Assembly (NCBI GenBank): GCA_019637805.1
Contig: JAHBVB010000001.1
Coordinates: 881,875-945,874, forward strand
Source: Anaerolineales bacterium
Lineage (GTDB): Bacteria > Chloroflexota > Anaerolineae > Anaerolineales > UBA11579
Direction of reading: 5' to 3'
Length of the DNA: 64,000 nucleotides
The position numbers and the translations under genes were made by a program. Of the stretch, positions 36,236 through 62,526 are shown one piece after another (position 1 is the first letter of the stretch; each line of letters begins with the position of its first letter). The notes below the pieces were generated by a model. The model searched no databases and was not told where the DNA came from. It saw only the letters and a list, made by a program, of their open reading frames with translations.

Positions 36236-36378
36236 GTCGCCTCTCATGTTGAGAGGCGACCAGTAGTACGGAACTTATCGCCTCATCTCTCAGAACAATC
36301 TGCCGGAATTGGCACCTGCCGCAATTGCGGCGGTTGCCGAGGCTTCAAAGGGCCGGTCCCTCCACCTCTCTGGATGAG
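36236..36378 (-). promoter_or_regulatory. SAM-I (S-box) riboswitch of metH
   Basis: This leader turns methionine-cycle genes down when SAM is high. Read on the minus strand from 36378, P1 CTCATC pairs with GATGAG near 36282. Between them are AGAGAGGTGGAGGGACCGG, CCCTTTGAAGCC, GGCAACC and GGTGCCAATTCC, all canonical S-box blocks. Downstream, a 10-bp hairpin (36236-36260, loop AACAT) is the OFF structure. Its 5' arm TCGCCTC can instead pair with GAGGCGA at the P1 3' strand, giving the ON structure. No U-run follows the hairpin, so control may be translational. The phage recombinase frame ends inside this aptamer. Confidence 0.95.
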
Positions 36379-37889
36379 TTGCCTATAGACACATCAATAG
36401 GCCAAACGTATTTAATTCTTGCGATTATACCGTCTCTTGAGCGGGATACAGCAACCTGGTGCACCAGGTTGCGGATGATGTGTTTGTTTTGCTGGGGATT
36501 GGCCAGGAGCTTGGATTTGAGCTCTTGGCTCAGGGCCGGGATGTTGATCTGAGCCAGACCATCGGCGGATTGGAGCCTGCCTTTCTCCTGGCGGATCTGT
36601 TCCTGCAGCTGGGGTAAATGGGTTTCCAGCTGGCGGACCTCGTCGAGCATGGCGGTGCTGTGGCCCAGCTCTGCGATCGCTTTTACCAGGTTGGCGAGGC
36701 GGTTTTTGGTTGTTTGCAGATCTTTCCGCAGGCGGTTGAGGTGATGTTCGTCCTTGCCGGCGGCCAGCTTTTGGCCGACACGTGCGGTGATCTCACTGAG
36801 GTTGGCTGGCGCCAGGATCTCGTCGACGAGGGTGGAGAGAACGGCCTGCTCGAGCAGATCTGCCCGGATCATGCGGCAGCCAGGGCCGGCGACGCGGTTT
36901 TTGTTGGCCTGGCAGCGATAGTAGGAGTAGCCCTGGCTGTGATCATGGCGGTTACGACTGCGCGAGCCGACCATGCTGGTCTGGCAGTCCAGGCAGAACA
37001 CCAGGCCGGAGAGGATCAGGGAGCTGCCGAGGATGCGCGGGTGGGTGCGGTTTTTGACCCGGTCGCTGGCTAGATGGCTGATTGCTTGCACGGCGTCCCA
37101 GGTTGCCTGGTCAACGATGGGGTCGCAGTAGTTTTCCACGATGGTTTGGTTGGCGCCTTTGCCGATCACGAGGTGGCCAATGTAGAGCTGGCGGCGAAAC
37201 ATCTTTGAATAGCCATTGCGTGAGGTGTGCAGCTGCAATTTTTTGTGGATCGATTTGATGGTGGCGCCAGCGGCGCGCATGCGAAAGGCCTCGGCAACCA
37301 GGGGTGCGGTGTTTGGATCGATCACCGGCCGGTAGCCTGTGTGTTGGCTGCCGTCGCGGCGCTGGCCGACATTGACCAGCTCGCGGCGAAAGCCGATGGG
37401 GGCGCGATGCCCGGGGAGGATGCCGTATTCCCGGGCAACAAAGTGCAGACCGCGGCGAATGTCGGCGGAAAGATCCTCGCGGAAGCGCTGGCTCATCCAG
37501 TCAATGGCGGCCTCGAAGAGGCGGCCGTCGGCCCCCTCTGGGATGCTGTCGTTGAGGGAATGGATGGAGTAGCCGCGCCGGCGCAGGTCCGCTTTATAAA
37601 ATTGGGCGTCGTCGAAATCGCGGGCGAAGCGGTTGAACCTCCAGAGCACCAGACCGTGGTCTGTGCAGTCGGGCGATCGCAAATGTTGGAGCATGGCCTC
37701 AAAGGCCGCCCGGCCGACAGTGGAGCCACCAGACACGGCCTCGTCGCGAAAGATGGCGGTGAGCTGGTGGCCGCGCTGGTCGCACCATTCGCGAATGGCG
37801 GCCTCTTGCTGCTCGAGGGAGAGATCTTGTTCTGTGCCGCCGCTGTCACGCAGGTAGGCGACCAGGCGTGCGCGAGGCGGCAGGCTCAT
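36345..37889 (-). CDS. large serine recombinase (phage integrase)
   Basis: This 514-residue enzyme would integrate and excise the prophage. The resolvase domain (about 8-150) has catalytic Ser16 in YLRDSGGTEQ with the SLEQQ helix and Arg in LVLWRFNRFARD. A recombinase domain (about 165-270) follows, then a zinc ribbon (VFCLDCQTS ... YYRCQANKN ... GPGC) and a coiled coil (about 380-450). The last ten or so residues (SREVEGPAL) are translated from the host SAM-I aptamer and the stop is the aptamer's TGA. The native C-terminus in free phage is therefore probably different. It starts 4 bases after the small membrane gene. Confidence 0.93.
   Translation of the reverse strand: MSLPPRARLVAYLRDSGGTEQDLSLEQQEAAIREWCDQRGHQLTAIFRDEAVSGGSTVGRAAFEAMLQHLRSPDCTDHGLVLWRFNRFARDFDDAQFYKADLRRRGYSIHSLNDSIPEGADGRLFEAAIDWMSQRFREDLSADIRRGLHFVAREYGILPGHRAPIGFRRELVNVGQRRDGSQHTGYRPVIDPNTAPLVAEAFRMRAAGATIKSIHKKLQLHTSRNGYSKMFRRQLYIGHLVIGKGANQTIVENYCDPIVDQATWDAVQAISHLASDRVKNRTHPRILGSSLILSGLVFCLDCQTSMVGSRSRNRHDHSQGYSYYRCQANKNRVAGPGCRMIRADLLEQAVLSTLVDEILAPANLSEITARVGQKLAAGKDEHHLNRLRKDLQTTKNRLANLVKAIAELGHSTAMLDEVRQLETHLPQLQEQIRQEKGRLQSADGLAQINIPALSQELKSKLLANPQQNKHIIRNLVHQVAVSRSRDGIIARIKYVWPIDVSIGNSSREVEGPAL
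36424..36454 (-). promoter_or_regulatory. candidate promoter reading into the metH riboswitch
   Basis: A perfect TATAAT (36429 down to 36424) lies about 45 bases upstream of the SAM-I aptamer. A TTGCTG (36454-36449) is 19 bases further up. The start would be near 36417. The site lies inside the 3' end of the serine recombinase gene, so the prophage side of the junction may supply it. Confidence 0.4.
36451..36472. repeat. 22-bp perfect palindrome in integrase 3' end
   Basis: GCAACCTGGTG and CACCAGGTTGC form a gapless perfect inverted repeat about 75 bp inside the prophage end. It is within coding sequence for RNLVHQV. It could be part of attP arm sequence or an operator next to the metH-directed promoter. 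Confidence 0.75.
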
Positions 37890-39130: not shown

Positions 39131-39529
39131 ATGTCTAGCAGTACGCAGACCCCTATCTACACGACCCCATTGGAGCAGTTGATCAGGACCCGAATTGAGG
39201 AAAAACGGGAGAACCGAACAGTGGGGGCGCAAGTCGGCCGCAGTGAGCTGACCATGGCAGTGATTGCCTGGTTCGAGGTGGAGCTGGGCGTGAGCCTAAC
39301 CCCTGGGCTGACGCTGAGGTTGATCGGCGCCGATTTGGACATGTTCCATGTGGAGATCCATCTAGGTCCGGGCGCACTGGTGCGCAGTGAGCATTGTTAT
39401 CGCTACTCGGGCGGCGGCATGGGTGCCGCGTCCCAAATTCGATGGATCGGCATCTCGACCCAATACGGCCGCGGCTTGTTCGGCGATTTCGTCGATGCGG
39501 CCGCGTTTGCGATGGCGGGAGTGCGATGA
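39131..39529 (+). CDS. uncharacterised phage early protein
   Basis: The product is 132 residues with no recognised domain. An N-terminal helix (TPLEQLIRTRIEEKRENRTVG) is followed by a beta-rich part with LTLRLIGADLDMFHVEIHLG. Ribosome-binding AGGAGG (39121-39126) is 4 bases from ATG 39131; the ATG at 39128 is too close. The stop overlaps the tyrosine recombinase ATG, suggesting coupled expression. Function unknown. Confidence 0.6.
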   Translation: MSSSTQTPIYTTPLEQLIRTRIEEKRENRTVGAQVGRSELTMAVIAWFEVELGVSLTPGLTLRLIGADLDMFHVEIHLGPGALVRSEHCYRYSGGGMGAASQIRWIGISTQYGRGLFGDFVDAAAFAMAGVR

Positions 39530-40440
39530 GCCCGGCCTGGAGTATTGACTTTGCCGCGTTCCTGCGGGAGCGTGAGGACCGGAGCGAGCGCACATTGGCG
39601 GCGTACTGCGGTGCGCTGCGGATCTTCGCCGCCTGGTTTGAGGCAGCGTACGGCCGGCCGTTTGCGCCGGCCGAGCTGACGGCCCGCGATGTGCGGGCCT
39701 ATCGCCACGAGTTGCAAGAGGTGCGCGGCCTGGCCGCCTCGACGATCAACGTGGCCCTGGCAGCGCTGAGAGCGCTGGCGCGCTGGGCGATGGCCAGCGG
39801 CGCCTTGACGAGCAACCCGGCGGCCAGTGTGGCCTTTGTGGAGCCGCCGCCGGCGGAGCCGCGCTGGATGACGCGCGGGGAGCTGAGCCGGCTGTTGGCC
39901 GAGTATGAGCGGGCGATCCATGATGCGGCGGCCCGCGGCGCCCAGGAGCGGCAGAGCCAGGCGACGCGTGACCTGGCGGCGGTGGCCTTGATGGCCGGGG
40001 CCGGCCTGCGGGTATCTGAGGCCTGCGCCCTGGACCTGAGCGATGTGCAGCTGGGCGAGCGCAGCGGCCAGGCGATGGTGCGTTTTGGCAAGGGGCGCCG
40101 GCAACGCCGCGTGCCGCTGAGTGCCGAGGTGCGCCAGGCGCTGGACAGTTGGATCCAGCTGCGCGGGGATGCGGATGGGCCGTTGTTGCTGGCCCAGCGT
40201 GGCGGCCGCCTGGGCCCGCGTCAGGTGGAGCGGGTGTTCGAGGAGCGCGCCCGGCGGGCGCGGCTGGAGGGCTATACACCTCACTCGCTGAGGCATACGT
40301 TTGTCAAGCGGGTGGTGGAGGCCAGCGACCTGGCCACGGCCAAAGAACTGGCCGGCCACCGGCAGATCCGCACGACGGCGCGCTATGCGGCGCCGAGCAA
40401 GCAGGAGCTGGCGGCGGCGGCTGAGGGGGTGCTGCTGTGA
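39526..40440 (+). CDS. tyrosine recombinase (XerC/D-like)
   Basis: This is a 304-residue site-specific recombinase with an N-terminal SAM-like core-binding domain (about 5-95) and a C-terminal catalytic domain. The full catalytic set is visible: Arg162 (GLRVSEA), Lys189 (FGKGRR), His253 and Arg256 (HSLRH), His278 (GHRQ) and nucleophile Tyr287 (TARYAAPS). GGGAG lies before ATG 39526. Because the prophage already has a serine integrase, this enzyme may resolve multimers or act in replication rather than integrate the phage; that is inference. Confidence 0.9.
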   Translation: MSPAWSIDFAAFLREREDRSERTLAAYCGALRIFAAWFEAAYGRPFAPAELTARDVRAYRHELQEVRGLAASTINVALAALRALARWAMASGALTSNPAASVAFVEPPPAEPRWMTRGELSRLLAEYERAIHDAAARGAQERQSQATRDLAAVALMAGAGLRVSEACALDLSDVQLGERSGQAMVRFGKGRRQRRVPLSAEVRQALDSWIQLRGDADGPLLLAQRGGRLGPRQVERVFEERARRARLEGYTPHSLRHTFVKRVVEASDLATAKELAGHRQIRTTARYAAPSKQELAAAAEGVLL

Positions 40441-47835: not shown

Positions 47836-48237
47836 ATGTTTGATTTGGACGGGCACCCGGCGCTGACCGATAACTTGCGCTACCGCTATGCCTCGACTTG
47901 GAGTGGCAAGGCGGACGCGGTGTGCCAGGTGCGCATCTTTGCGCCCGCGGGCAAGCCCTCGGTAGTGGTGGTCAGTGAGTTGGCCGAGAACACCGGCACC
48001 AGCGTGACGAATGCCTGCGAACGTCTTGTGGCTGAGCTGCAGAAAGCGTTTGAGCTGCCGGCGGACACGGTTTGGGTGGAGCACTGGCGCGAGGATGGAC
48101 GTATGCCGAGATCCGCATGGGGGACAGGAGAGAGCTTTGACGTGATCGAGCTACTGGGATTGCCAGGCGTACGTCGTTGGAGGCGGTTGTCGCCGGAGAA
48201 GATGGCAGCGTTGCTGGAGGCCGGCGATGGAGACTGA
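47836..48237 (+). CDS. uncharacterised phage protein, 133 residues
   Basis: ATG 47836 is used because GGAGG lies 5 bases upstream; a GTG 12 bases earlier is less likely. The product has a beta-rich first half (RIFAPAGKPSVVVVSELAEN) and a helix (VTNACERLVAELQKAFELP). Its end overlaps the next gene by 11 bases. No family is recognised. Confidence 0.5.
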   Translation: MFDLDGHPALTDNLRYRYASTWSGKADAVCQVRIFAPAGKPSVVVVSELAENTGTSVTNACERLVAELQKAFELPADTVWVEHWREDGRMPRSAWGTGESFDVIELLGLPGVRRWRRLSPEKMAALLEAGDGD

Positions 48238-48517
48238 TGGGCGGCCGGCGCGGTGGACCTGCAAGTGTGGGTACACGCTGGGGCTGGTGCCGGAGCGGCC
48301 GCGAAAGGTACGCAGCCTGGTGCTGCTGCCGCGGGCGTGGCCGCCGACCGACTGGCCGCCGAAGACGTTGGTGGAGGCCAGCCTGGTGACGCTGACGGGC
48401 AAGGCGGTGGTGCGCTGCAGCCGCTGCGGACGCACGCGCACCTGGCATGCGGCGGCGTATGCGACGCAGGATTTTTTGGAGCGCCGAGCGGCGCGGAAGG
48501 AGCAAAGCGATGGGTGA
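48227..48517 (+). CDS. zinc-ribbon protein upstream of ParB-like gene
   Basis: This is a 96-residue protein with two CxC/CxxC knuckles, CKCG near residue 12 and CSRCGRTRTWH near 64, forming a likely zinc ribbon. GGAGG lies 6 bases before the ATG. Its last 8 bases overlap the ParB-like gene. It may bind nucleic acid together with ParB; that is inference from position. Confidence 0.55.
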   Translation: METDGRPARWTCKCGYTLGLVPERPRKVRSLVLLPRAWPPTDWPPKTLVEASLVTLTGKAVVRCSRCGRTRTWHAAAYATQDFLERRAARKEQSDG

Positions 48518-51809: not shown

Positions 51810-52060
51810 TGGGGCGCACGACGCAGACCGTGACCGACTTCATCCGCCAGATGGAGAGCCAGCTGGGGCCGGTGGGCAAGGCGCTCACGCCAGAGGAGCG
51901 CATGATCCTGCGGCGGCTGTTCAGCGGCGCCCGGCGGCACATTGCAGCGATCACGATGAGCGGGCACCTGCTGCCCTTCGAGATGGTGCTGCTGGCGATG
52001 CAGCTGGAGCAGCAAAAACAGCTGGACGAGCTGCGGGCGCAACTGGAGGGCGGAGAGTGA
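51809..52060 (+). CDS. small helical protein before DNA polymerase
   Basis: This is an 83-residue helical protein whose ATG overlaps the upstream stop by one base and whose stop overlaps the polymerase GTG by 4 bases. Its C-terminal PFEMVLLAMQLEQQKQLDEL matches the minus-strand protein at 50995-51246. It could be a polymerase accessory or a dimerising regulator; no family recognised. Confidence 0.6.
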   Translation: MGRTTQTVTDFIRQMESQLGPVGKALTPEERMILRRLFSGARRHIAAITMSGHLLPFEMVLLAMQLEQQKQLDELRAQLEGGE

Positions 52061-54327
52061 GCACAGAGATCGGCTGGCTGTTGGACCTGTATGCCGACGA
52101 GCGCCGGCGCGGCCTGGTGCTGTGGCTGGCCTGCAAAGACGGCCGGCGGCTGCAGCTGCAGCAGGCATTCCCGATCACGTTCTATGCCACGGGCGACTTC
52201 GCCGTGCTGCGCCAGCTGTGGGATTACCTGCGCAAGCAGCCGGTGCACACGCTGCGCGAACGAACCAGCAGGCAAGACTCGACCGGGCAGGTTTTTGATG
52301 TGATGGCGATCACGGTGTTGAACCCAGCCCTGCAGCCGCGGCTGTTCCGGGAGGTGGAGGAGCGCTTTCCGCAGCTGACCTATTTCGACTGCGATCTGAG
52401 CGTGTCGCTGCGCTATGCGGCCGCCTTCGATGTTTTCCCGATGAGCCTGTGCGAAGTGGATATCGAGGATGGCTGGGTAAAGGCAATACGGCCGCTGAAC
52501 AGCCGCTGGGAGGTCTTCCCGGAGGAGCCCAGCCTGCGGTTGCTGCGCATTTTCCCGGACACGGACCCGCTGCATGAGCGGCCGCGGGTGCTGCACCTGC
52601 AGAGCGAGCAGCGTCAGCACCAGATCCCGCTGAGCTCTGCGCGGCTGCTGATCAGTGGGATGAACAGCTTGTTGGCGTTGGAGGACCCTGACCTGATCCT
52701 GGCTGAGCGAGGCGACACCTGGTTGTTCCCCTTGCTGCGGCGGGCGGCCAAGAAGGCCGGCATGGAATTCAACCCCAATCGGGACAAGAGCCGGCCGCCC
52801 CGGGAGATCCGGGAGAACAGCTATTTCTCCTATGGGCGGGTGATCTACCGCGGGCAGCAGACCCACCTGTTCGGGCGCTGGCACATCGACGGGAAGAACG
52901 CCACGACCTACAGCCACTATGGGGTGCAGGGCGCCATCGAGCAGGCCCAGGTGAGTGCGATGCCGGTGCAGGAGATGGCACGCAAATCGCCCGGGTCCGG
53001 CATCACGGCGATGTTCACGCTGACCACGCTGCGGCGCGGCCACCTGGTGCCGTATGAGAAGCTGCGGGTGGAAAGCCCAAAGACGCTGCGGCAGCTGTAT
53101 GCGGCCGACAAGGGCGGGCTGATCTACCAACCTACACTGGGCCTGCATTGCCACGTGGTGCAGATCGATTACTCCTCGATGTATCCCTCGATCATGGCGC
53201 TGTGGAACGTCTCGCCCGAGACGGTGGGGGTGGCCAGCGAGGTGGTCAAGAAGGTGCCGGAGATCGACCTGGTGATCGACCAGACCCGGCGGGGCGTGGT
53301 GGCGGAGACGCTGGCGCCGTTGCTGGAGAAACGCCTGGCGATCAAAGCGATGCTGGCCGAGATGGCGAAGGACAGCCTGGAGTACCAGGCGCTGGAGGCA
53401 CGCAATACGGCGCTGAAGTGGTTGCTGGTGGTGTGCTTTGGCTACCAGGGCTATAAGAATTTCCGGGAAGGCAAGGTTGAGGCGCATGAGGCGATCACGG
53501 CGTTCAGCCGGGACGCCTTGCTGCGGACCATGCGCATTGTCGAAGAGCTGGGCTTTGAGGTGCTGCACATGTACGTGGACTCGCTGTGGATCAAGCGGGC
53601 CGATGAGCGGCCGATCAGCCAGGAGGAGGTGCGGCGCGTGCTGGACAAGGTGGAGAAGGATATCGGCCTGCCGATCTCGGTGGAGGCGCGCTACAAGTTC
53701 GTGGCGTTCCTGCCGGCACGCGGCAACGCAGAGGTGCCAGTGCCGAACCGCTACTTTGGCCAACTGGAGGATGGCAGCTGGAAGGTGCGCGGCACACCCA
53801 GCCGGCGGCACGATACACCGCGGCTGGTGAGCGAGCTGGAACAGGAATTGCTGGAGTGCCTGGGCGGGAGCGGCCACCCAGCCGGCCGGGTGCAGGATGT
53901 GGTGACCTTGCTGCGGCAGCGGGTGGATGAGATGCGCAGCGGCGGGGTGCCGCTGGAGAAGCTGGTGGCCAGTGTGAACATCAGCAAACCACCGGGGGAC
54001 TATCGGGTGCGGTCCAGCGCGGCGACGGCCGGGCTGCAGATGGAGGCGGCCGGTCGGCCGGTGCGGGCCGGCCAGCTGGTGCGCTTTGTGTATGTGCGCG
54101 GCGAGCCGCGGGTGCATGCCTGGGAAGGCGGGGGCGGCTTGCGCGGCAAGCAGATAGACACCAGCCGCTATGTGGACCTGATCTTGCGGATGGCGGTGAC
54201 CTTCCTGCAGCCGTTGGGGGTCAGCGAGACGATGCTGCGGGCGTGGGTGGTGGAGCGGGCCTGGTATGGACCGGGGCCGGAGGAGTTTGCGCTGGGCGAG
54301 CGGCTGGAGATGCCATCGCTGAGGTAA
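52057..54327 (+). CDS. family B DNA polymerase (proofreading motifs degenerate)
   Basis: This 756-residue enzyme would replicate phage DNA. Polymerase motif A is DYSSMYPS (Asp371). Motif B is around LKWLLVVCFGYQGYKN (Lys454) with the usual NSxYG changed to VCFGYQG. Motif C is MYVDSLW (Asp508), where the first Asp of the usual DTDS is replaced by Tyr506. Exo I survives as YFDCDLS (111-113), but Exo II and Exo III acidic residues are absent in the aligned segments. Start is GTG 52057 overlapping the previous stop. Catalysis by Asp371/Asp508 still looks possible. Confidence 0.85.
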   Translation: MSTEIGWLLDLYADERRRGLVLWLACKDGRRLQLQQAFPITFYATGDFAVLRQLWDYLRKQPVHTLRERTSRQDSTGQVFDVMAITVLNPALQPRLFREVEERFPQLTYFDCDLSVSLRYAAAFDVFPMSLCEVDIEDGWVKAIRPLNSRWEVFPEEPSLRLLRIFPDTDPLHERPRVLHLQSEQRQHQIPLSSARLLISGMNSLLALEDPDLILAERGDTWLFPLLRRAAKKAGMEFNPNRDKSRPPREIRENSYFSYGRVIYRGQQTHLFGRWHIDGKNATTYSHYGVQGAIEQAQVSAMPVQEMARKSPGSGITAMFTLTTLRRGHLVPYEKLRVESPKTLRQLYAADKGGLIYQPTLGLHCHVVQIDYSSMYPSIMALWNVSPETVGVASEVVKKVPEIDLVIDQTRRGVVAETLAPLLEKRLAIKAMLAEMAKDSLEYQALEARNTALKWLLVVCFGYQGYKNFREGKVEAHEAITAFSRDALLRTMRIVEELGFEVLHMYVDSLWIKRADERPISQEEVRRVLDKVEKDIGLPISVEARYKFVAFLPARGNAEVPVPNRYFGQLEDGSWKVRGTPSRRHDTPRLVSELEQELLECLGGSGHPAGRVQDVVTLLRQRVDEMRSGGVPLEKLVASVNISKPPGDYRVRSSAATAGLQMEAAGRPVRAGQLVRFVYVRGEPRVHAWEGGGGLRGKQIDTSRYVDLILRMAVTFLQPLGVSETMLRAWVVERAWYGPGPEEFALGERLEMPSLR

Positions 54328-54665: not shown

Positions 54666-54749
54666 ATGGGTTTGGAACCCTTTGCCGTAGCGGTTCTTGC
54701 CGGACTATTCGTTTTGCTGGTAGAACGAGTATTGATGGCTAAACCCTAG
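54666..54749 (+). CDS. 27-residue hydrophobic peptide (holin-like or type I toxin-like)
   Basis: ATG 54666 has AAAGGAGGG 7 bases upstream, the strongest ribosome-binding site of the phage region. The 27-residue product is one transmembrane helix (AVAVLAGLFVLLVERVLM) with a short basic end, and an intrinsic terminator follows at once. This is the layout of small phage membrane peptides and of type I toxins. No antisense RNA promoter is clear. Function is inference. Confidence 0.6.
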   Translation: MGLEPFAVAVLAGLFVLLVERVLMAKP

Positions 54750-54785
54750 AAAAAAAGGCCGCCGGAGCCCTCCGGCGGCCTTTTT
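54750..54785. terminator. intrinsic terminator
   Basis: AAAAAAAGGCCGCCGGA and TCCGGCGGCCTTTTT form a 10-bp GC stem around GCCC with A- and T-runs, right after the 27-residue gene. Confidence 0.92.
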
Positions 54786-54787
54786 GA

Positions 54788-54815
54788 TTGACATTGCATT
54801 TGTTAGCGTGATAAG
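54788..54815 (+). promoter_or_regulatory. promoter before leader RNA copy 1 (terminase unit)
   Basis: A perfect TTGACA (54788-54793) is followed 16 bases later by GATAAG (54810-54815). The start near 54822 is about 10 bases before the conserved RNA element. Confidence 0.65.
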
Positions 54816-54830
54816 CTGACGGCTGACAAG

Positions 54831-54929
54831 AGAGCTACTTCCCGGTAATCCATGGGAAGTCCGGCGGAAGATGAGCGCCCGCCACTAGATTCCAAAAAAC
54901 GGAGTCTGGTGGCGGGCGTTTTTTTTGTT
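54831..54929 (+). ncRNA. repeated phage leader RNA with attenuator, copy 1
   Basis: This 99-base element recurs at 60245-60343 with two differences. It contains a hairpin ACTTCCC/GGGAAGT with a 10-base loop, a spacer GGCGGAAGATGAGCG, and a terminator whose 18-bp stem (two to three G-U pairs, loop AAAAAAC) is followed by eight T. GGCGG in the spacer can pair with CCGCC of the terminator 5' arm, giving an alternative structure. It ends 13 bases before the terminase small-subunit start, so read-through decides expression of the packaging genes. Confidence 0.8.
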
Positions 54930-54942
54930 TGGGAGGCCCAGG

Positions 54943-55656
54943 GTGCCGATCGAGAACAAGGACATGACCTACACCCAGCTGGGGCTGGGGGCGGAGTTTG
55001 ATGCGCTGGAGGACGACGGGGCACCCAGCGCACAGGACGCGGCGGATATCAGCGCGGCAGCTCGAGAGGCCCTGATGTTGTTGGTGCGGGGCGATAGGCG
55101 AGCCTGGGCCGCAAAGGACGGCGCGTCGCTGCCGCATGAGCTGCCAAAGTGGCTGGACAGTTTTGTGTGGCTGCTGGGCCGCGGCTGGCCGTGGCGGCAG
55201 GCGACTTTTATCGCCTGGCTGGCCAGCCCGCGCAAAAACCGCTGGCCACCGACGCAGGAAGAGCTGGCCACGCAGGTGCTGGGGCTGAGCAGCGACCGGA
55301 GGCTGAGCGTGTGGCGACAGAAGAACCCCATGATCGAGACGACGGTGGGGATGCTGCAATCGGCCGAGCTGTACCATGCGCGGGCAGATGTGTTGGCGGC
55401 ACTTAAAGAAGTGGCGGCTGAGGCAGATTACAAGGCGCACCCGGACCGCAAGATGTTCCTGGAAATGACGGGGGACTATGTGCCGATCAGCCAGCTGAAG
55501 GCGATGCTGCTGAAGGGTGATTTCAAAACCAAGCGTGGGGTTGAGGACCTGAGCGATGAGGAACTGATCCAGCTGAGCCAGGGCGACTGGGGCGTGCTGG
55601 CCAAAGAAGGGGAGCCGAACGGCAGTGATGCTGAGCCAACCAAACACGCTGGTTAG
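54943..55656 (+). CDS. terminase small subunit candidate
   Basis: This is a 237-residue protein with a helix-turn-helix of the phage terminase small-subunit type (WPPTQEELATQVLGLSSDRR ... VWRQKNPMIETTV, about 95-130) and a helical multimerisation region (LAALKEVAAEADY). It would recognise phage DNA and recruit the large terminase. GTG 54943 is chosen because GGGAGG lies 6 bases upstream; ATG 54964 is the alternative. It directly follows the attenuator RNA and overlaps the large terminase by 29 bases. Confidence 0.7.
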   Translation: MPIENKDMTYTQLGLGAEFDALEDDGAPSAQDAADISAAAREALMLLVRGDRRAWAAKDGASLPHELPKWLDSFVWLLGRGWPWRQATFIAWLASPRKNRWPPTQEELATQVLGLSSDRRLSVWRQKNPMIETTVGMLQSAELYHARADVLAALKEVAAEADYKAHPDRKMFLEMTGDYVPISQLKAMLLKGDFKTKRGVEDLSDEELIQLSQGDWGVLAKEGEPNGSDAEPTKHAG

Positions 55657-57175
55657 CCCGACGGACGCCAAGCGCGAGCTGGCGCGGCGCGAGCTGGGCC
55701 GGCGGCGGCTGACCGCGGCCACAGAGTACCTGCTGCCCTGGTACGAGACGCAGCGATTCCACCGGCTGATCGACCATGCCCTGGAGGACGCCGAGCGCTA
55801 TGTGCGCACGCGCGGCCGGGAGGGCTACGGGCGGCACATCGTCCTGACCCCACCGCGCTACGGCAAGAGCGAAAAGGTGTCCAAGGTGTTCCCGGCCTGG
55901 TTCCTGGGGAAGAACCCGGACATGCGGGTGATCCTGGCGTCTTACGGCGCCGACCTGGCGCACGGCAATTCGCGGGCGGTGCGCGACATTATTCTCTCGG
56001 AGCAGTATGCCGGCATCTTTGGCCAAAAGGCGCTGGTGGATGAGCCGGTGGGGTTGGACCCGGACAGCCGGGCGGTGAGCGGCTGGGAGCTGGCGGTTCC
56101 GCACCGCGGCGGCCTGGCGGCGGCAGGCGTGGGCGGGCCGTTGACCGGCAAGGGCGCGCACCTGATGGTGATCGATGATCCGTATAAAGACCGCGAGCAG
56201 GCCGAGAGCGCGGCCTACCGGCAAAAGGTGATCGATTGGTGGAGCTCGGTGGCTTACCAGCGGCTGGAGGACTTTGCGGCGGTGGTGCTGGTGCAGACGC
56301 GCTGGCACCCAAACGACCTGGCCGGATACCTGATGAGAGAGATGCTGCACAACCCGGATGCGGACCAGTGGCGGGTGCTGAGCCTGCCGACGGTGGCCCC
56401 GGAGGAAAGCGAATACGCCAAGGATGAGAGCGAGCAGCGGTCGGCCCTGGCCCAAGGCATTTATTTGAACTTGAAAGACCCGTTAGACCGGCAGCCTGGC
56501 GAGGTGCTGTGGCCGGGCAAGTACGGACCAGAGCAGGTGCGCCAGATCCGGGCGAACACGGCGGCGCACGACTGGCTGGCGCTGCACATGCAAACACCGC
56601 GGCCGCGCACGGGCGGTTTTTTTGCGAAGGAATGGCAGATGGTAGACCGGGCGCCGGAGAACTTGCGCTGGTTCCGGGTGTGGGACCTGGCGACCAGCGA
56701 GAGCGCCAAGGCCGACTACACCTGCGGGGCGGCGATCGCGTTTGACCCGGATGGGGTGCTGTACATCCGCGACCTGCGGCGTTGGCGGGCGGCCTGGCCG
56801 GAGAGCCGGCGGCGGCTGGTGGAGATCTCCGGGGAGGTGCCGGCCGGCGAGATCTGGGGGCTGGAGAATGTGGCCTTCCAGCTGGCAGCGATCCAGGACT
56901 TGCGGGCGGAGCTGCAGAGCCGACCGATCTATGCGGTGAAACCTGAGGCGGGCAAGGAAGAGATGGCTTTGCCGCTGCAGACGCTGAACGACCTGGGGCG
57001 GGTCTGCCTGGTGCGCGGGCCGTGGAACCGGGACTTTGTGGAGGAGGCCAGCGTCTTCCCGCGGCCGGGTGAGAAGGACGACCAGATCGACACAATCACC
57101 AAGGGCATGCAGCTGGCCCGCGAGTACGAGAAGAAGCACGGGATCAGCGGCGCGAAGCTAGTGGGTTTCGCGTAA
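55628..57175 (+). CDS. phage terminase large subunit
   Basis: This is the 515-residue packaging motor. The ATPase half has Walker A TPPRYGKSEK (about 75-83) and Walker B LMVIDDPYKD (about 180). The RNase H-like nuclease half has RVWDLATSESAKADYT (about 360), GLENVAF and the late acidic motif KDDQIDTITKGM. ATG 55628 overlaps the small subunit gene; a GTG one codon earlier is possible. The portal gene follows after 13 bases. Confidence 0.93.
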   Translation: MLSQPNTLVSPTDAKRELARRELGRRRLTAATEYLLPWYETQRFHRLIDHALEDAERYVRTRGREGYGRHIVLTPPRYGKSEKVSKVFPAWFLGKNPDMRVILASYGADLAHGNSRAVRDIILSEQYAGIFGQKALVDEPVGLDPDSRAVSGWELAVPHRGGLAAAGVGGPLTGKGAHLMVIDDPYKDREQAESAAYRQKVIDWWSSVAYQRLEDFAAVVLVQTRWHPNDLAGYLMREMLHNPDADQWRVLSLPTVAPEESEYAKDESEQRSALAQGIYLNLKDPLDRQPGEVLWPGKYGPEQVRQIRANTAAHDWLALHMQTPRPRTGGFFAKEWQMVDRAPENLRWFRVWDLATSESAKADYTCGAAIAFDPDGVLYIRDLRRWRAAWPESRRRLVEISGEVPAGEIWGLENVAFQLAAIQDLRAELQSRPIYAVKPEAGKEEMALPLQTLNDLGRVCLVRGPWNRDFVEEASVFPRPGEKDDQIDTITKGMQLAREYEKKHGISGAKLVGFA

Positions 57176-57188
57176 ACGAGGAGCAGGC

Positions 57189-58694
57189 ATGGGCATATTT
57201 GACAAGTTAGGGCTGGGGCTGGGCAGCGTACTGGGCAATGTGGCGGGCGGGGCGGTGGGCGCCTACCGGCAGGCGGTGGGGGCACCGGCCAAAGCGACGG
57301 TGCCTGGGCCAGCGTTGGTGAGTGGAGACCGCGAGCGAGCGATGCCCAGCCTGGCGGTGGCCTACAACCAGCAGGACCTGTACCAAAGGCTGGCGTGGGT
57401 AAGCATGGCGATCTCGGCCGTGGCGCAGCAGGCGGCCGGCGGCTTGTTTAACGTGGTGCAGCTGGAGGGCGAGGAGGCGCGCGATATTCCTAACCATCCC
57501 TACGAGCTGCTGCACCGGCGGCCAAACCCGCTGTGGGCCGGTTTCGAGTTCTGGCGGGCGTTCTTTTCGTACCAACTGTTAACCGGCAACGCCTACGCCT
57601 GGCTAAACAAAGCGCATGCCACGGCGCCAATCCAGGAGATGTGGCTGGTGCCGAGCCACAAAATACAGCCGGTGCCGGACGGCAGGCAGGGGATCCGCGG
57701 CTACAAGTACGATCCGGGCGGCGGCGCCCCAGTCGTTTATCTGGATCCCTGGGAGGTGCTGCACACGCGCGAATTCCATTCGATGAATATGTACGTGGGG
57801 CTGTCGCGGATCTCGCAACTGGCGATCGTGGCGCAGGGCGACCTAGCGATGCAGAAGCACAACACGAGTTATTTTCACGACCAGGGCGGACGGGTGCCCG
57901 GGCTGCTGGCTTTCCCTGATCCGATCGGCGATGAGGAGTGGGCGGAGCTGAAGGCCCAGGTGAAGCAGGCGGACAAAGAGCAGCGGATGATGATGCTGCG
58001 TAATGTGGGGGTTGGCGGCGTGAACTGGGTGGCGACCTCGATGACGCGCAAGGACATGGAATTCCTGGCCGGTCGCGAGGCCAACCAGGAGGAGATCTTC
58101 AACTGGCTGGCGCCGGGGCTGAACAGCTGGCTGGCGGTGAACAGCACAGAGGCCAATTCAAAGAGCGGCCGGGACGCTTTTTACGAACTGAGCGTGTGGC
58201 CGCTGCACAAATTGTTGGGCGAGAAAGTCACCAGCCAGCTGCTGCCGAGCTACGGCAAGAACCTGCTGGGCAACTTTGAGGATGTGCGGCCGAGGGACAC
58301 CGAGCTGCGCCTGCGGGAGCAACTGGCCTACGAGCGCACACACACGGTGGACGAGGTGCGCAAGAAGTACTACAGCGAAGCTCCACTGCCCGGAGGACGG
58401 GGCGGGCAGCTGGCGCGGGATATGGGCGGTGACCTGGAACGGCTGGACACGAACACGGCTCTGCCGGCCGAAAAGGCAGTGCGCCGGCCGGGCGCTGAGA
58501 AGGAGCGAGAGCAGTTCCGCCGCTATGCCCAGAAGCGGTTGGAGGAAGGCAAACCGGAGAAGGTGGGCGAATTCCGGTTTGAGACCTTGGACGAGGCTGA
58601 GCAAACGGAGTTGAAGGCCGAGGTGCTGGGCGGAGACTGGGCGCTGAAACAGCGTTTGCAAGACCTGATCGATGAGGTGAGAGAAGATGCTTGA
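57189..58694 (+). CDS. HK97-family portal protein
   Basis: This 501-residue protein forms the dodecameric ring through which DNA enters the capsid. Typical portal segments are visible: YQRLAWVSMAISAVAQQAAG (about 60-80), LLHRRPNPLWAGFEFWRAFF, LLTGNAYAWLNK, PIQEMWLVPSHKIQPVPD and VLHTREFHSMNMYVGLSRIS. GAGGAG precedes the ATG. It overlaps the HicB-like gene by 8 bases. Confidence 0.92.
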   Translation: MGIFDKLGLGLGSVLGNVAGGAVGAYRQAVGAPAKATVPGPALVSGDRERAMPSLAVAYNQQDLYQRLAWVSMAISAVAQQAAGGLFNVVQLEGEEARDIPNHPYELLHRRPNPLWAGFEFWRAFFSYQLLTGNAYAWLNKAHATAPIQEMWLVPSHKIQPVPDGRQGIRGYKYDPGGGAPVVYLDPWEVLHTREFHSMNMYVGLSRISQLAIVAQGDLAMQKHNTSYFHDQGGRVPGLLAFPDPIGDEEWAELKAQVKQADKEQRMMMLRNVGVGGVNWVATSMTRKDMEFLAGREANQEEIFNWLAPGLNSWLAVNSTEANSKSGRDAFYELSVWPLHKLLGEKVTSQLLPSYGKNLLGNFEDVRPRDTELRLREQLAYERTHTVDEVRKKYYSEAPLPGGRGGQLARDMGGDLERLDTNTALPAEKAVRRPGAEKEREQFRRYAQKRLEEGKPEKVGEFRFETLDEAEQTELKAEVLGGDWALKQRLQDLIDEVREDA

Positions 58695-58890
58695 CCCCAA
58701 AGAGGTGACTGTTGAGATACGGCGAGACGGCAAGGGCTACCAGGCACACAGCCCGCAGGTGGGCGGCTGCAGAGGCTGGGGCATGACCCGGGTGGATGCG
58801 CTGCGCAACCTGGAGGACGCCCTAGCCGTCGAAGCGGCCACACGGCGGAATGGCCGCCGGCCACCCCCCGACGCGTTGTATGTTGGATAG
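58687..58890 (+). CDS. HicB-like fold small protein
   Basis: This is a 67-residue protein with the HicB/partial-RNase H-like antitoxin pattern (VEIRRDGKGYQAHSPQVGGC and DALRNLEDALAVEA). No HicA toxin is adjacent and no HTH tail is present, so it is probably a domain homologue recruited into the head operon. It overlaps both neighbours. Confidence 0.55.
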   Translation: MLDPKEVTVEIRRDGKGYQAHSPQVGGCRGWGMTRVDALRNLEDALAVEAATRRNGRRPPPDALYVG

Positions 58891-59704
58891 CTACCGGCAG
58901 ATCGACCAGGCCGCGGATGCGCTGGCGGCGCGGGGCGTGGAGTTGGACGCGGCCTACAAGCGGCGCGACCGGCGCGAGCCGGGCCGGGCGCAGAAGGAGC
59001 GGCTGGAGGACCGCCTGGCGAAGGCGGTGCGGCAGCTGTTCGCGGCGCAGCAAGCGGCGGTGCTGTATTTTGCTGAGGGTCTTCGACCCTCAGCAAAATC
59101 TGACCTGTGGCTGCAGCTGGGGGAGCTGGGCTTGAGCGATGAGGAGGCTGAGGCGGCGATCTTGCTGGTGCTGAGCGAGGCCGGCGCCCATGCGACGGAG
59201 CTGTTCGCCCAGCAGGCCTCGATCGGGCTGGACCTGGCGCTGTATCAAACCCTGGCCACGGGCCATGTGCGCAGCCAGTTCGGGGAGCTGATCACGAACA
59301 TCAACCAGGCGACGCTGCGAGCGGTGCAGGAGGCGGTGGCGCTGTATTTGGAGACGCCGGGCATGCGGCTGCGCGACCTGGTGGAGATGCTGCCGTTCGG
59401 CAAAGAGCGGGCGATCCTGGTGGCCCGCACGGAGATCACCCAGGCGTATGGGGAGATCAACCGGCTGGCCGGCGAGCAGCTGGCCAGAGATTTCCCGGAC
59501 GTGGAGGTGGTGGAGACCTGGTTTACCAACCGGGCGCCGAATGTGTGCCCGGTGTGCCAGGGCTTGGATGGGGTCTCGCGGCGGCCCGGCGAGCCATTCG
59601 TGCACCGGAGCAGCGGCCAAAAATACCACAGCCCGCGCGATACGCACCCGGGCTGCGGTTGCTGGACGCATGTGCGCACGGCGATCCTGGAGGAGGCGAG
59701 ATGA
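58880..59704 (+). CDS. Mu F-like minor head protein
   Basis: This is a 274-residue head morphogenesis protein. The C-terminal third has the Mu F-like pattern: ILVARTEITQAYGEINRLAG, CPVCQGLDG and a final HPGCGCW zinc-like motif. The N-terminal part is helical. Such proteins sit at the portal and help assembly or DNA ejection. ATG 58880 overlaps the HicB-like gene by 11 bases; the ribosome-binding site is weak. Confidence 0.82.
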   Translation: MLDSYRQIDQAADALAARGVELDAAYKRRDRREPGRAQKERLEDRLAKAVRQLFAAQQAAVLYFAEGLRPSAKSDLWLQLGELGLSDEEAEAAILLVLSEAGAHATELFAQQASIGLDLALYQTLATGHVRSQFGELITNINQATLRAVQEAVALYLETPGMRLRDLVEMLPFGKERAILVARTEITQAYGEINRLAGEQLARDFPDVEVVETWFTNRAPNVCPVCQGLDGVSRRPGEPFVHRSSGQKYHSPRDTHPGCGCWTHVRTAILEEAR

Positions 59705-60165
59705 CGGAGATCCACATCCGGATCGAAGGCGGCCCGGAGGTGCAGGCGATGTTGAGGGCCTTGCCGCCGCAATTGGAGCGCTCGGCCGAGGCAGCCGGCA
59801 AGGAATTTGCCGGCGTGGTGCTGGAGCAGGATGGTGTGCTGGCCTACCCACCGACCGGGCCGGGCAGCCAACCCCCGGCGCCCTATTACCAGCGCGGGGT
59901 GGGCATGCAATACAGCAACGGGTACAACGATCTGCGCTCGGAGCGTTACGGCGCCAGCTTCAGCGTGTCGGCGCGGGGCTACCGCACGGAGGTGGGCAAT
60001 GCGGCGAGCTACGCGGAGCACCTGGGCGGCGTGAAGCAGGCGCGGCATATGGCCGCGCTGGGCTGGAGGCGCTTGATCGATGCGGCGCGCAGCAAGCTGG
60101 GCGAGGGCCGGCGGATCTATGTGCGCTGGATCGAGCACGGGCTGCAGCGGCTGGGGTTGAAATAG
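59701..60165 (+). CDS. HK97 gp10-like head-tail connector protein
   Basis: This is a 154-residue protein with IHIRIEGGPEVQAMLRALPP at the N-terminus and an interior YPPTGPGSQPPAPYYQRG segment, resembling gp10/neck-type proteins. Position after the minor head protein fits a connector or tail-completion role. ATG 59701 overlaps the previous stop by 4 bases, with GGAGGAGG upstream. Moderate certainty. Confidence 0.6.
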   Translation: MTEIHIRIEGGPEVQAMLRALPPQLERSAEAAGKEFAGVVLEQDGVLAYPPTGPGSQPPAPYYQRGVGMQYSNGYNDLRSERYGASFSVSARGYRTEVGNAASYAEHLGGVKQARHMAALGWRRLIDAARSKLGEGRRIYVRWIEHGLQRLGLK

Positions 60166-60175
60166 AGCGCCGCGC

Positions 60176-60205
60176 TTGACAGGCGCCGAGGTTTTGCAGT
60201 AAGGT
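60176..60205 (+). promoter_or_regulatory. promoter before leader RNA copy 2 (capsid unit)
   Basis: A perfect TTGACA (60176-60181) is followed 18 bases later by TAAGGT (60200-60205). The -10 is weak. The start near 60212 lies before the second copy of the RNA element. Confidence 0.5.
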
Positions 60206-60244
60206 TGCGCATGTCGCCGGGCTGAGGCCTTGGCGGCGGACAAT

Positions 60245-60343
60245 AGAGCTACTTCCCGGTAACCCATGGGAAGTCAGGCGGAAGATGAGCGCCCGCCACT
60301 AGATTCCAAAAAACGGAGTCTGGTGGCGGGCGTTTTTTTTGTT
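60245..60343 (+). ncRNA. repeated phage leader RNA with attenuator, copy 2
   Basis: This is the second copy of the 99-base element at 54831, differing only at two positions: T to C in the loop of the first hairpin (near 60263) and C to A just after that hairpin (near 60276). Neither change breaks a stem. It ends 26 bases before the protease-capsid gene. Sequences before and after the element are unrelated between the copies, apart from TTGACA about 43-70 bases upstream. Confidence 0.8.
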
Positions 60344-60369: not shown

Positions 60370-62526
60370 ATGGAGAGATACCGGATCGATGCAGCGATGA
60401 AGGTCAAGGCCCTGGACGACATGGTGCTGGAGGTGCTGGGAATGCCCTACGGCGGGCCATTCGATGGGCGCGATGCAGACGGCCAGTATTTCTCACCGCG
60501 CACCAACCGACGCGAAGAGTTTTTCCCAGAGCCAGTGGCGGTGTACTACCACGGTTATCGAGAGGATGGGCGTGGGCCAGACGGCGAGCCCAAATACGTG
60601 GGCCGCACGGTGAGCTCAGAGGAGCGCAGCGACGGAGTGTGGTACCGCATCCTGCTGGACCAAACCAGCGCTTTGGCGCGGCGCCTATGGGAGGCAGCGC
60701 GCGAAGGAATGCTTAGGGCCTCATCTGGCTCGGTGAACCACCTGGTGCGGGTCGATGAGGATGGGCATATCCGCGAATGGCCGGTGGCCGAGATCAGCCT
60801 GCTGGATCTGTCACTGGGGCAGGCGCCGGCCAACCCATATGCGGTGGCGCTGCCGGTTTTGAAGAGCATTTACAAGCAGGCGGGCATCGACCTGCCTGAG
60901 GGGCTGGAGACCAAACCAGAGGCCGCGGAGGTCCGGGGCAAGGAAGCTCCTGGGCGCGGCGGAGCAGGGGCCAGCCAGACCAACCAACCCAACCAATCCA
61001 AAGGAGTGAAAGCGATGGAACCTGAAATTAGCCAAGCGCAGCTGGAGGCTGCGCGCCTGGAGGGCCGCAAGGCGCTGCAGGCCGAGCTGGACGCCGAGGC
61101 AAAGCGCCAAAAGGAAATCGAGGACGCCAAGGACGCGGCGGTTAAGGCGGCCCAGGCGGCCTGGGAGGAAGAGAAGAAAACGCTGGAAGAGTCGGCCACC
61201 AAAGGCCGCCGGCTGCCAGACAACCCCGACGAGCTTCCCGACCTGCTGAAGTATGCGGAAACGGCCAAGTACGACAACCTGGACGATGGCGCCCTGGCGC
61301 TGACCATCGGTGTGTTGAGTGCGGCCAAGGCCGGCGGACGCTCCCGTGGCGGAGCGAGCGATGGGGCGTTGAAGGCCCTGGCGATCCGCACAGTGGAAGC
61401 CAAGGCCGAGGTGCAGCGCCGGCAGAACAGCCGGGTGCTGCGGGCGATGAAGGCGGCTGGGATGCCGCTGAAAGCCAATGAACTGAACCAGACCACGCTC
61501 GCTGATTATGGCGATGAGTGGGTGGGCGAAGCCTACTCGAATGACCTGTGGCGTCGGATCGTTGAGGAGGGCAGCATTGCCGGCAAGATCCCTGCCGTCG
61601 AAGTGCCGCATGGGGTGGAGGCGATCAACATCCCCCTCGAGGGCGCCCCGCCGAGTTTCTACAAAGTGGCCCAGGCAGCTGACCTGGAGGACGGGGCGCT
61701 GAGCCGCCCGGAAGTGACGGTGCCGGCATCGCGGCGCGGCACCGGCAAGCGCCAGCTGACGATGGGCAAGATCGGCGCCCGCACGGTTTACGCGGGCGAG
61801 CTGGAGGAGCAGAGCTTCGTGCCGTGGGCAGAAGAGCTGCGCGCTTCGATCGTGCAGGAGGGCAAGGAGGTGATCGATCACATCGCGATCGATGGCGACA
61901 AGACCACCACCGCAAGCACCAACATCAACGATATCGCCGGTACGCCGGCTGGGAACGAGGCCTTCCTGATCGCGGACGGCTTCCGGAAATTGGCCTTGCT
62001 GGGTGGGTCAGGCAGCAATGCGCGGGATGCCGGCGAGACCTTTGACGCCAGCGATTTCCTGGAGACGGTGAAGTTGATGGGCCTGGGCGGCCGCAATGCA
62101 GGCAACAAGGACAAGGTCGAATTCATCCTTGACATGTGGACGCACTGGGCAAGCCTGGGCCTGGCCGAGGTGAAAACGCGTGATGTGTTTGCGGCGCCGA
62201 CAATCGAGGCAGGCACCCTGACGAGCATCTGGGGCTACCAGGTCCAGGCGACCGGCAACATGCATCGGGTCAACCAGGACGCGAGCTATGGCCTGAAGGC
62301 CAATGCGGCAGGCAAGATCGACCTGGACACAGTGACCAACAACACGCGCGGCGCGATCCTGGCAGTGCGCTACGACCAATGGCGCCTGGGCTACTGGCGC
62401 CGGATGACGATCGAGGTGACGCGCTACCCCTCCAGCGACGCGAACGAGATCGTGGCGCTGGCGATGCTGGGCCTGATCAACCGCGACGCAGAAGCCGCAG
62501 CAATCTCCTACAACGTCAAGGTCTAA
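60370..62526 (+). CDS. prohead protease-major capsid protein fusion
   Basis: This is a 718-residue polyprotein for head assembly. Residues about 1-165 match a U35-type prohead protease with His61 (YYHGY) and Ser118/119 (LRASSGSVNH). A Gln/Asn/Lys linker leads to a coiled-coil scaffold-like delta region (about 216-290), then an HK97-fold major capsid protein (about 330-718) ending TIEVTRYPSSDANEIVAL. An internal ATG at 61015 (residue 216) has AAAGGAGT 7 bases upstream and could make a separate 503-residue scaffold-capsid protein. GGAGGAG precedes the main ATG. Confidence 0.87.
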   Translation: MERYRIDAAMKVKALDDMVLEVLGMPYGGPFDGRDADGQYFSPRTNRREEFFPEPVAVYYHGYREDGRGPDGEPKYVGRTVSSEERSDGVWYRILLDQTSALARRLWEAAREGMLRASSGSVNHLVRVDEDGHIREWPVAEISLLDLSLGQAPANPYAVALPVLKSIYKQAGIDLPEGLETKPEAAEVRGKEAPGRGGAGASQTNQPNQSKGVKAMEPEISQAQLEAARLEGRKALQAELDAEAKRQKEIEDAKDAAVKAAQAAWEEEKKTLEESATKGRRLPDNPDELPDLLKYAETAKYDNLDDGALALTIGVLSAAKAGGRSRGGASDGALKALAIRTVEAKAEVQRRQNSRVLRAMKAAGMPLKANELNQTTLADYGDEWVGEAYSNDLWRRIVEEGSIAGKIPAVEVPHGVEAINIPLEGAPPSFYKVAQAADLEDGALSRPEVTVPASRRGTGKRQLTMGKIGARTVYAGELEEQSFVPWAEELRASIVQEGKEVIDHIAIDGDKTTTASTNINDIAGTPAGNEAFLIADGFRKLALLGGSGSNARDAGETFDASDFLETVKLMGLGGRNAGNKDKVEFILDMWTHWASLGLAEVKTRDVFAAPTIEAGTLTSIWGYQVQATGNMHRVNQDASYGLKANAAGKIDLDTVTNNTRGAILAVRYDQWRLGYWRRMTIEVTRYPSSDANEIVALAMLGLINRDAEAAAISYNVKV

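Follow-up and report, generated by a model that had tools for sequence, protein, structure and literature searches.

What switches on the packaging and head genes of a prophage in which two late units each begin behind the same short sequence? The question is raised by a window of 64,000 nucleotides (nt), by which is meant the whole stretch of DNA analysed (Anaerolineales bacterium, GenBank assembly GCA_019637805.1, contig JAHBVB010000001.1, positions 881,875 to 945,874), in which a 99-nt element stands at 54831-54929 and again at 60245-60343. The reading favoured here, at a rough probability of 0.68, is that the element encodes a leader RNA that would serve as a protein-dependent antitermination switch of the two late (packaging and head) units, with a small zinc-ribbon protein encoded further upstream as its most likely factor.

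Aligned with each other, the window copies agree at 97 of 99 positions, and their likeness reaches 14 nt further in the 5' direction (54817-54929 against 60231-60343, 95.6%), beyond which the flanks fall to background. The two mismatches, at offset 18 in the loop of a first hairpin (hairpin 1) and at offset 31 in the bulge between hairpin 1 and GGC, leave the stems untouched. Each copy follows a TTGACA box (54788 and 60176, with the -10-like sequences TAAGCT and TAAGGT, respectively) and ends in an intrinsic terminator with a stem of about 19 base pairs (bp) and a U8 tract (-38.9 kcal/mol), 13 nt before the GTG at 54943 in copy 1 and 26 nt before the ATG at 60370 in copy 2. The identity, the unrelated flanks, the position of the substitutions outside stems and the arrangement of promoter, terminator and gene start had all been described in a first-pass annotation made from the sequence alone, and each was found again. 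The two copies fold with z-scores of -7.9 and -9.5, and a search of the whole host genome returns only these two. A separate strong terminator at 54750-54785 precedes copy 1 and closes the upstream operon, so that the leader terminator is not required to end upstream transcription. The parts are as follows.

54788-54816, plus strand: promoter of copy 1 (TTGACA 54788-54793, 17-nt spacer, TAAGCT-like -10)
54826-54926, plus strand: leader RNA, copy 1 (ACAA..GAGCU, then hairpin 1, then P2 and terminator)
54837-54860, plus strand: hairpin 1, copy 1 (stem ACUUCCCG/UGGGAAGU, varying by compensation between the six copies of three prophages)
54863-54883, plus strand: putative antiterminator hairpin P2, copy 1 (GGCGG 54863-54867, A, loop AGAUGAGCGC 54869-54878, CCGCC 54879-54883; assigned by covariation)
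54875-54926, plus strand: intrinsic terminator, copy 1 (5' arm includes the CCGCC of P2; U8 54919-54926)
60176-60205, plus strand: promoter of copy 2 (TTGACA 60176-60181, 18-nt spacer, TAAGGT)
60240-60340, plus strand: leader RNA, copy 2
60277-60297, plus strand: putative antiterminator hairpin P2, copy 2 (loop 60283-60292; assigned by covariation)
60289-60340, plus strand: intrinsic terminator, copy 2 (U8 60333-60340)

Two other genomes of the genus, one of them JAHCIH010 (Anaerolineales bacterium), hold related prophages (terminase identity 87% and 64%) with the same two leader copies, 5.4 kilobases (kb) apart, in the same places. Across the six copies of the three prophages, the core GGCGGAAGAUGAGCGCCCGCCAC is invariant, hairpin 1 varies by compensation (for example ACUUCCC/GGGAAGU, AUCUCCG/CGGAGAU and UGCUCCC/GGGAGCG), and the promoter spacers are unlike one another; the default alignment of the six shifts the G002 rows by one base, and hairpin-1 covariation is understated there. 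An extra short hairpin (GTCGCCG...CGGCGGAC) lies 5' of copy 2 in the window (60208-60237) and likewise in the second copies of the sister prophages, the first copies being without it. As a separate observation, the sister prophage G003 (L033/L026) has lost, just before its first leader, the genes for primase, ParB, DNA polymerase B and the zinc-ribbon protein, and an internal deletion is suggested by an open reading frame (ORF) of 90 amino acids (aa) at the junction, in which one early gene's start runs into another's end.

Beyond the genus, a covariance model built from the six copies turned up additional leaders in the order's other families, in two cases on a contig that also carries homologous terminase or head genes, and a search of IMG/VR with the family motif AGATGAGCGCC-N20-50-GGCGYTTT matched 69 contigs, about 55 of them with the full architecture; GenBank Virus Rctr41k carries the leader as well. 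The leader is so far known from prophages of the order Anaerolineales and from uncultured viruses. Exact hairpin-1 and core patterns had given zero matches in IMG/VR, and BLASTN against phage records returned nothing; the family surfaced in IMG/VR only once the sister prophages had fixed the core and the terminator could vary. Among 400 Chloroflexota genomes the motif pattern occurs in one, the window's own, which makes it a feature of phages rather than a repeat of the host. The first-pass annotation had made its proposal depend on the existence of copies in related phages and had suggested a covariance-model search for covarying copies upstream of late phage genes; copies are widespread, in prophages of the order and in IMG/VR alike.

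The members share a common anatomy: a promoter, hairpin 1, the 5-bp P2 with its almost invariant 10-nt loop AGAUGAGCGC, and a terminator whose 5' arm holds the 3' strand of P2. Hairpin 1 precedes most P2 elements, commonly by 3 nt, promoters scoring at least 9 of 12 are present at 29 of 50 leaders (8.8% of shuffles), and the distance from the -10 to the loop ranges from 38 to 99 nt. Downstream genes begin right after the leader terminator, the commonest protein families among them being terminase large subunit, portal, major head protein, head maturation (prohead) protease and endolysin. Two leader copies are also found in L111, L113, L140, L159, G331, G347 and G370, so that the window is no exception in having a pair. 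Rfam, searched with the window and 16 leader loci, gave no family above its gathering threshold (best sub-threshold match ctRNA_pGA1, 28.6 of 45 bits), in agreement with the earlier remark that no RNA of such form had been described; neither the loop written as RNA nor Chloroflexi, prophage and antitermination together were found in the literature searched, subscription literature being outside its scope. The leader is an undescribed phage RNA family.

A few neighbouring results concern the limits of this family. The core match in Conexibacter, GC-rich and with no U-run after the core in the part read, was set aside as likely chance, and the R1 matches in G287 and G297 were left out of the counts because the architecture was not shown there. 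No trans-acting antisense RNA complementary to the core was common to the three prophages among the matches listed. A phage contig without the motif, L048 (IMGVR_UViG_3300044953_000862), has its own pair of near-identical leader terminators at 4328-4373 and 4856-4901 (GGCUCAUUUUGGAAAGCCC ... GGGCUUUUU), one of which follows a TTGACA-TATAAT promoter; from this pair, leaders of other kinds may often be duplicated as well. L029 (G198), a phage of the same order with a homologous terminase and no AGAUGAGCGC leader found, has two almost identical terminators (AACCCCGGTTTGCAG...) 13 kb apart (5416-5452 and 18313-18347), the first shortly 3' of a TTGACA promoter.

That the leader is a switch is argued by P2 and by the strand that it shares with the terminator. 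In alignment A5, 87.6% of the cells of the P2 stem are paired and 63 double changes are seen, against a shuffled mean of 18 and with none of 500 shuffles reaching 63, and sliding the P2 columns by one to three drops the pairing signal to background. Among 49 leaders picked for a terminator and at least four P2 pairs, the two strands of the stem (X5 and X5') pair at 93.5%, against 57% in shuffles (maximum 69%), X5' pairs with the terminator 3' arm at 98.8%, and 33 distinct X5 sequences occur (X5/X5' being, for example, GAUGG/CCAUC, GACGG/CCGUC, GGAAG/CUUCC, GUCAG/CUGGC or GAGCG/CGCUC). Before that selection, at least four P2 pairs were present in 59 of 64 core matches with a following terminator and in 4 of 34 without one. 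Because X5' is shared with the terminator 5' arm, X5 resembles the 3' arm (80% identity, against 49% by chance). Variation falls on the P2 stem and hairpin 1 and scarcely touches the loop, and where the loop reads ACUC or GCUC for GCGC the terminator arm is altered to match, so that the loop's 3' four bases appear to be held by the terminator and the recognised part to be chiefly AGA(U/C)(G/A)(A/G).

Energetically, P2 is weak (median -4.1 kcal/mol; -7.3 for GGCGG-A-AGAUGAGCGC-CCGCC in the window) and the terminator strong (median -28.6 kcal/mol), which implies termination as the resting state and a P2 that needs help. A strand shared by two folds and covariation of both pairings, the general mark of terminator/antiterminator switches, are both found here, and the mutual exclusion of P2 and terminator, and with it the predicted RNA switch, is well supported by these comparisons. 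The first-pass suggestion that GGCGG competes with the terminator arm gains three-strand covariation across 49 diverse leaders and a consistent late-gene placement; of the two elements that it named as signs of a switch, the upstream hairpin and GGCGG, the latter keeps its part, and the key element becomes the 10-nt loop on its 5-bp stem in place of hairpin 1.

The candidate for the help that P2 needs came from clustering the proteins of leader-bearing contigs, which yielded one small family:

48227-48517, plus strand: candidate cognate antiterminator, a 96-aa zinc-ribbon protein of an undescribed family (sole copy in the host genome; proposed on co-occurrence)

Its motif is W-x-C-x-x-(G/C)-(H/C)-x-L-G ... 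V-x-C-x-x-C-G-x-x-R-x-W, it has no Pfam, PHROG, NCBIfam or PDB assignment, and an AlphaFold2 model of the window protein shows a zinc ribbon with a C-terminal helix (predicted local distance difference test score 81.5). Matches to the ribbon profile at leader loci all lie upstream on the same strand, many ending 23-200 nt before the loop, directly before the late promoter. The protein was found in 30 of 46 leader-bearing virus records, taken as full records, and in none of 48 controls (0/32 contigs picked by terminase similarity and 0/16 with a chance pattern match); for records of at least 20 kb the counts are 22 of 28 and 0 of 20 (Fisher 1.6e-8), with a profile built from leader-bearing contigs and controls mostly not host-matched.

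Searches that used just the ribbon protein led to Virus Rctr41k, where the homologue was confirmed and the leader then found at about 15578-15705, before the packaging genes, with promoter, hairpin 1, GACG-AGAUAAGCGC-CGUC and terminator; to the IMG/VR contigs L183, L185, L188, L189 and L194 with the leader, and L191/L192 with a variant; and to the leader-bearing host genomes G274, G370, G211 and G317. The ribbon protein alone predicts the leader in further phages. Two early proteins of 173 and 76 aa were also considered as antiterminators and rejected, as neither recurs across leader-bearing phages. Judged by genomic association, the ribbon protein is probably the trigger of the switch; we infer that it binds P2, that read-through comes about through this binding, and at what time in the phage cycle it acts.

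The proposed course of events would be the following. RNA polymerase starts at the sigma-70-like promoter and makes an RNA of about 100 nt, on which hairpin 1 and then P2 would fold as it emerges, before the 3' arm of the terminator exists. Without the factor, the terminator, which is very stable (about -39 kcal/mol in the window), would form and the head genes would stay off, as in the lysogen or in early infection. A phage factor, most likely the zinc-ribbon protein, would hold on to the loop of P2, perhaps to hairpin 1 as well, and so keep the CCGCC strand out of the terminator; the polymerase would then read into the terminase or head operon, the two copies allowing one factor to switch two operons together. 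The comparative evidence, all of it drawn from sequence, covers the anatomy, the mutual exclusion, the late-gene setting, the spread of the leader and the co-occurrence of the ribbon protein. A broader statement, to which somewhat better than even odds may be given, is that the AGAUGA(GCGC)-loop RNA family and an undescribed zinc-ribbon RNA-binding protein form a new two-part system, a lytic late-gene switch of many phages that replaces regulators of the Q, N or sigma type.

Several findings weigh against the part given to the ribbon protein, and with them the RNA switch could be real and its trigger a different protein of phage or host, some small molecule or, as with put, RNA polymerase itself, the ribbon gene being merely lineage-linked. 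The sister prophage G003 keeps both leaders with the ribbon gene absent and the replication module deleted, and may be defective; 6 of the 28 long leader-bearing records have no recognisable ribbon, and about half of the records found through the ribbon have no recognisable leader; a PDB fold search gave the ribbon model no clear solved relative; and, besides the origin of the profile, the controls come partly from other host groups, so that part of the leader-ribbon association could be shared phage ancestry. Against a merely lineage-linked gene stand its strictly upstream, same-strand position, often adjoining the promoter, its success in predicting leaders in further contigs, and the terminase-homologous phages of the order, of which four have both, one has the leader only and four have neither (no leader match in L029, L031 and L032); a different trigger is considered unlikely. 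Less probable again is processive antitermination of the lambda Q or nut type, in which the leader would load a factor onto polymerase that then passes later terminators, the leader terminator being the first obstacle. A promoter that looks constitutive, followed by a short leader and a terminator ahead of the late genes, does resemble lambda pR'-tR', the ribbon gene often stands just before the late promoter as Q does, and the copy-2 terminator inside the late region is one from which a polymerase modified at copy 1 would profit; Q-type sites, however, are DNA in the promoter spacer, whereas here the spacer is not conserved and the distance to the loop varies, and a processive system would not need the complementarity of P2 and terminator that the kept, terminator-overlapping RNA structure displays.

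Two further readings fare worse. An ordinary terminator or insulator, duplicated by recombination and unregulated, or a mobile repeat, would account for near-identical copies and for sequence homogenised within a phage (G000, G002), but copy 1 already has a strong terminator upstream, the element sits between promoter and gene, an invariant unpaired loop and a P2 stem that covaries with the terminator are not expected of an insulator, and a mobile repeat sits poorly with only two copies per genome; this reading is highly improbable. Attenuation by a leader peptide, with a ribosome that starts at the AUG in AGAUGAGCGC and covers the terminator arm, draws on the AUG of the window loop and the GGCGGAAG that precedes it (MSARH-stop); it is contradicted by the AUG-less loops AGAUAAGCGC, AGACGAGCGC, AGUUGAGCGC and AGACGGACUC and was rejected, its probability being close to nil.

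Among known systems, protein-dependent antitermination of the ANTAR or LicT type is the closest working analogue of the proposed switch, in place of the HK022 put RNAs named as a functional analogy at first pass; the idea of an antiterminator-type RNA is retained. In ANTAR RNAs (EutV, NasR, AmiR), an intrinsic terminator is overlapped by the second of two small hairpins, a dedicated protein binds conserved loop residues, termination is the default, and both hairpins carry six-nucleotide loops with A1 and G4 (PMC3369931). The leader likewise has two hairpins of which the second overlaps an intrinsic terminator; in contrast, its hairpin-1 loops have 4-13 nt and differ in sequence, only one of the eight hexaloops among them having A1/G4, its P2 loop has 10 nt, the candidate protein is a zinc ribbon without an ANTAR match, and the targets are phage late genes. 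No ANTAR-domain protein (PF03861) was among the 30 prophage proteins scanned with Pfam, the host genome not having been searched. With the BglG/LicT ribonucleic antiterminator (RF03530, bglG-cis-reg), the leader shares an antiterminator hairpin that is mutually exclusive with an overlapping terminator and stabilised by protein, putatively so here; the RNA differs (15.9 bits against a gathering score of 80), and no CAT/PRD protein was found among the prophage proteins scanned.

HK022 put acts alone on RNA polymerase, in early operons and on distant terminators, with no protein needed (PMC9378689); it resembles the leader as a phage leader RNA with two stem-loops near a promoter and two copies per phage. 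In the leader, by contrast, one strand of the second hairpin belongs to the terminator as well, and a protein gene is found along with the RNA. Lambda Q at pR'-tR', AlpA and GafZ are factors that load via promoter DNA sites (PMC11150451). The succession of promoter, short leader and terminator before virion genes, often with the factor gene just upstream, is common to them and to the leader, whereas the conserved determinant of the leader is not a DNA element in the promoter spacer but an RNA structure at variable promoter distance. Mu Com and other small zinc-ribbon RNA regulators are small phage proteins with two zinc knuckles, as is the ribbon protein, which is not placed among them because it has no assignment in the databases named above. 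The switch is a new RNA family with, probably, a new protein family, and antitermination itself is of a known kind.

The genes that follow the two leaders in the window are these.

54943-55656, plus strand: first gene behind copy 1, presumed terminase small subunit (GTG start; directly before the terminase large subunit; no family match of its own)
55625-57175, plus strand: terminase large subunit (PHROG phrog_38, E 1.3e-88)
57189-58694, plus strand: portal protein (Phage_portal, E 1.4e-38)
60370-62526, plus strand: first gene behind copy 2, a 718-aa presumed head protein (homologues kept in the sister prophages, 80% and 57%)

The product of the last gene, read at first pass as a protease-capsid fusion, matches nothing in Pfam or PHROG and does not resemble the annotated capsid or protease of Rctr41k; the fusion is not established, gene position being its sole basis. 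Elsewhere in the prophage, a 27-aa ORF (54666-54749, plus strand) that has a good ribosome site and resembles a membrane peptide lies just 5' of the terminator that precedes leader copy 1, and a family-B DNA polymerase gene (52057-54327, plus strand) was not found in the two sister prophages. Both sister prophages keep the serine recombinase (36345-37889, minus strand) and the tyrosine recombinase (39394-40440, plus strand) of the window prophage. Near the prophage's left side, an S-adenosylmethionine (SAM) riboswitch (36280-36380, minus strand; RF00162, 88 bits) lies where the serine integrase gene has its downstream end, and this region is a possible attachment-site neighbourhood.

To our knowledge, late-gene activation is known for only a few model phages. 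For phages of hardly cultivable hosts, the leader offers a recognisable and widespread element together with a candidate protein trigger, and the switch can be annotated from sequence and tried in ordinary laboratory reporters. If the proposed pairing of leader and ribbon protein is true, the few known families of RNA-binding antiterminator proteins would be joined by one more, and a compact two-part device would become available for controlled transcription read-through.

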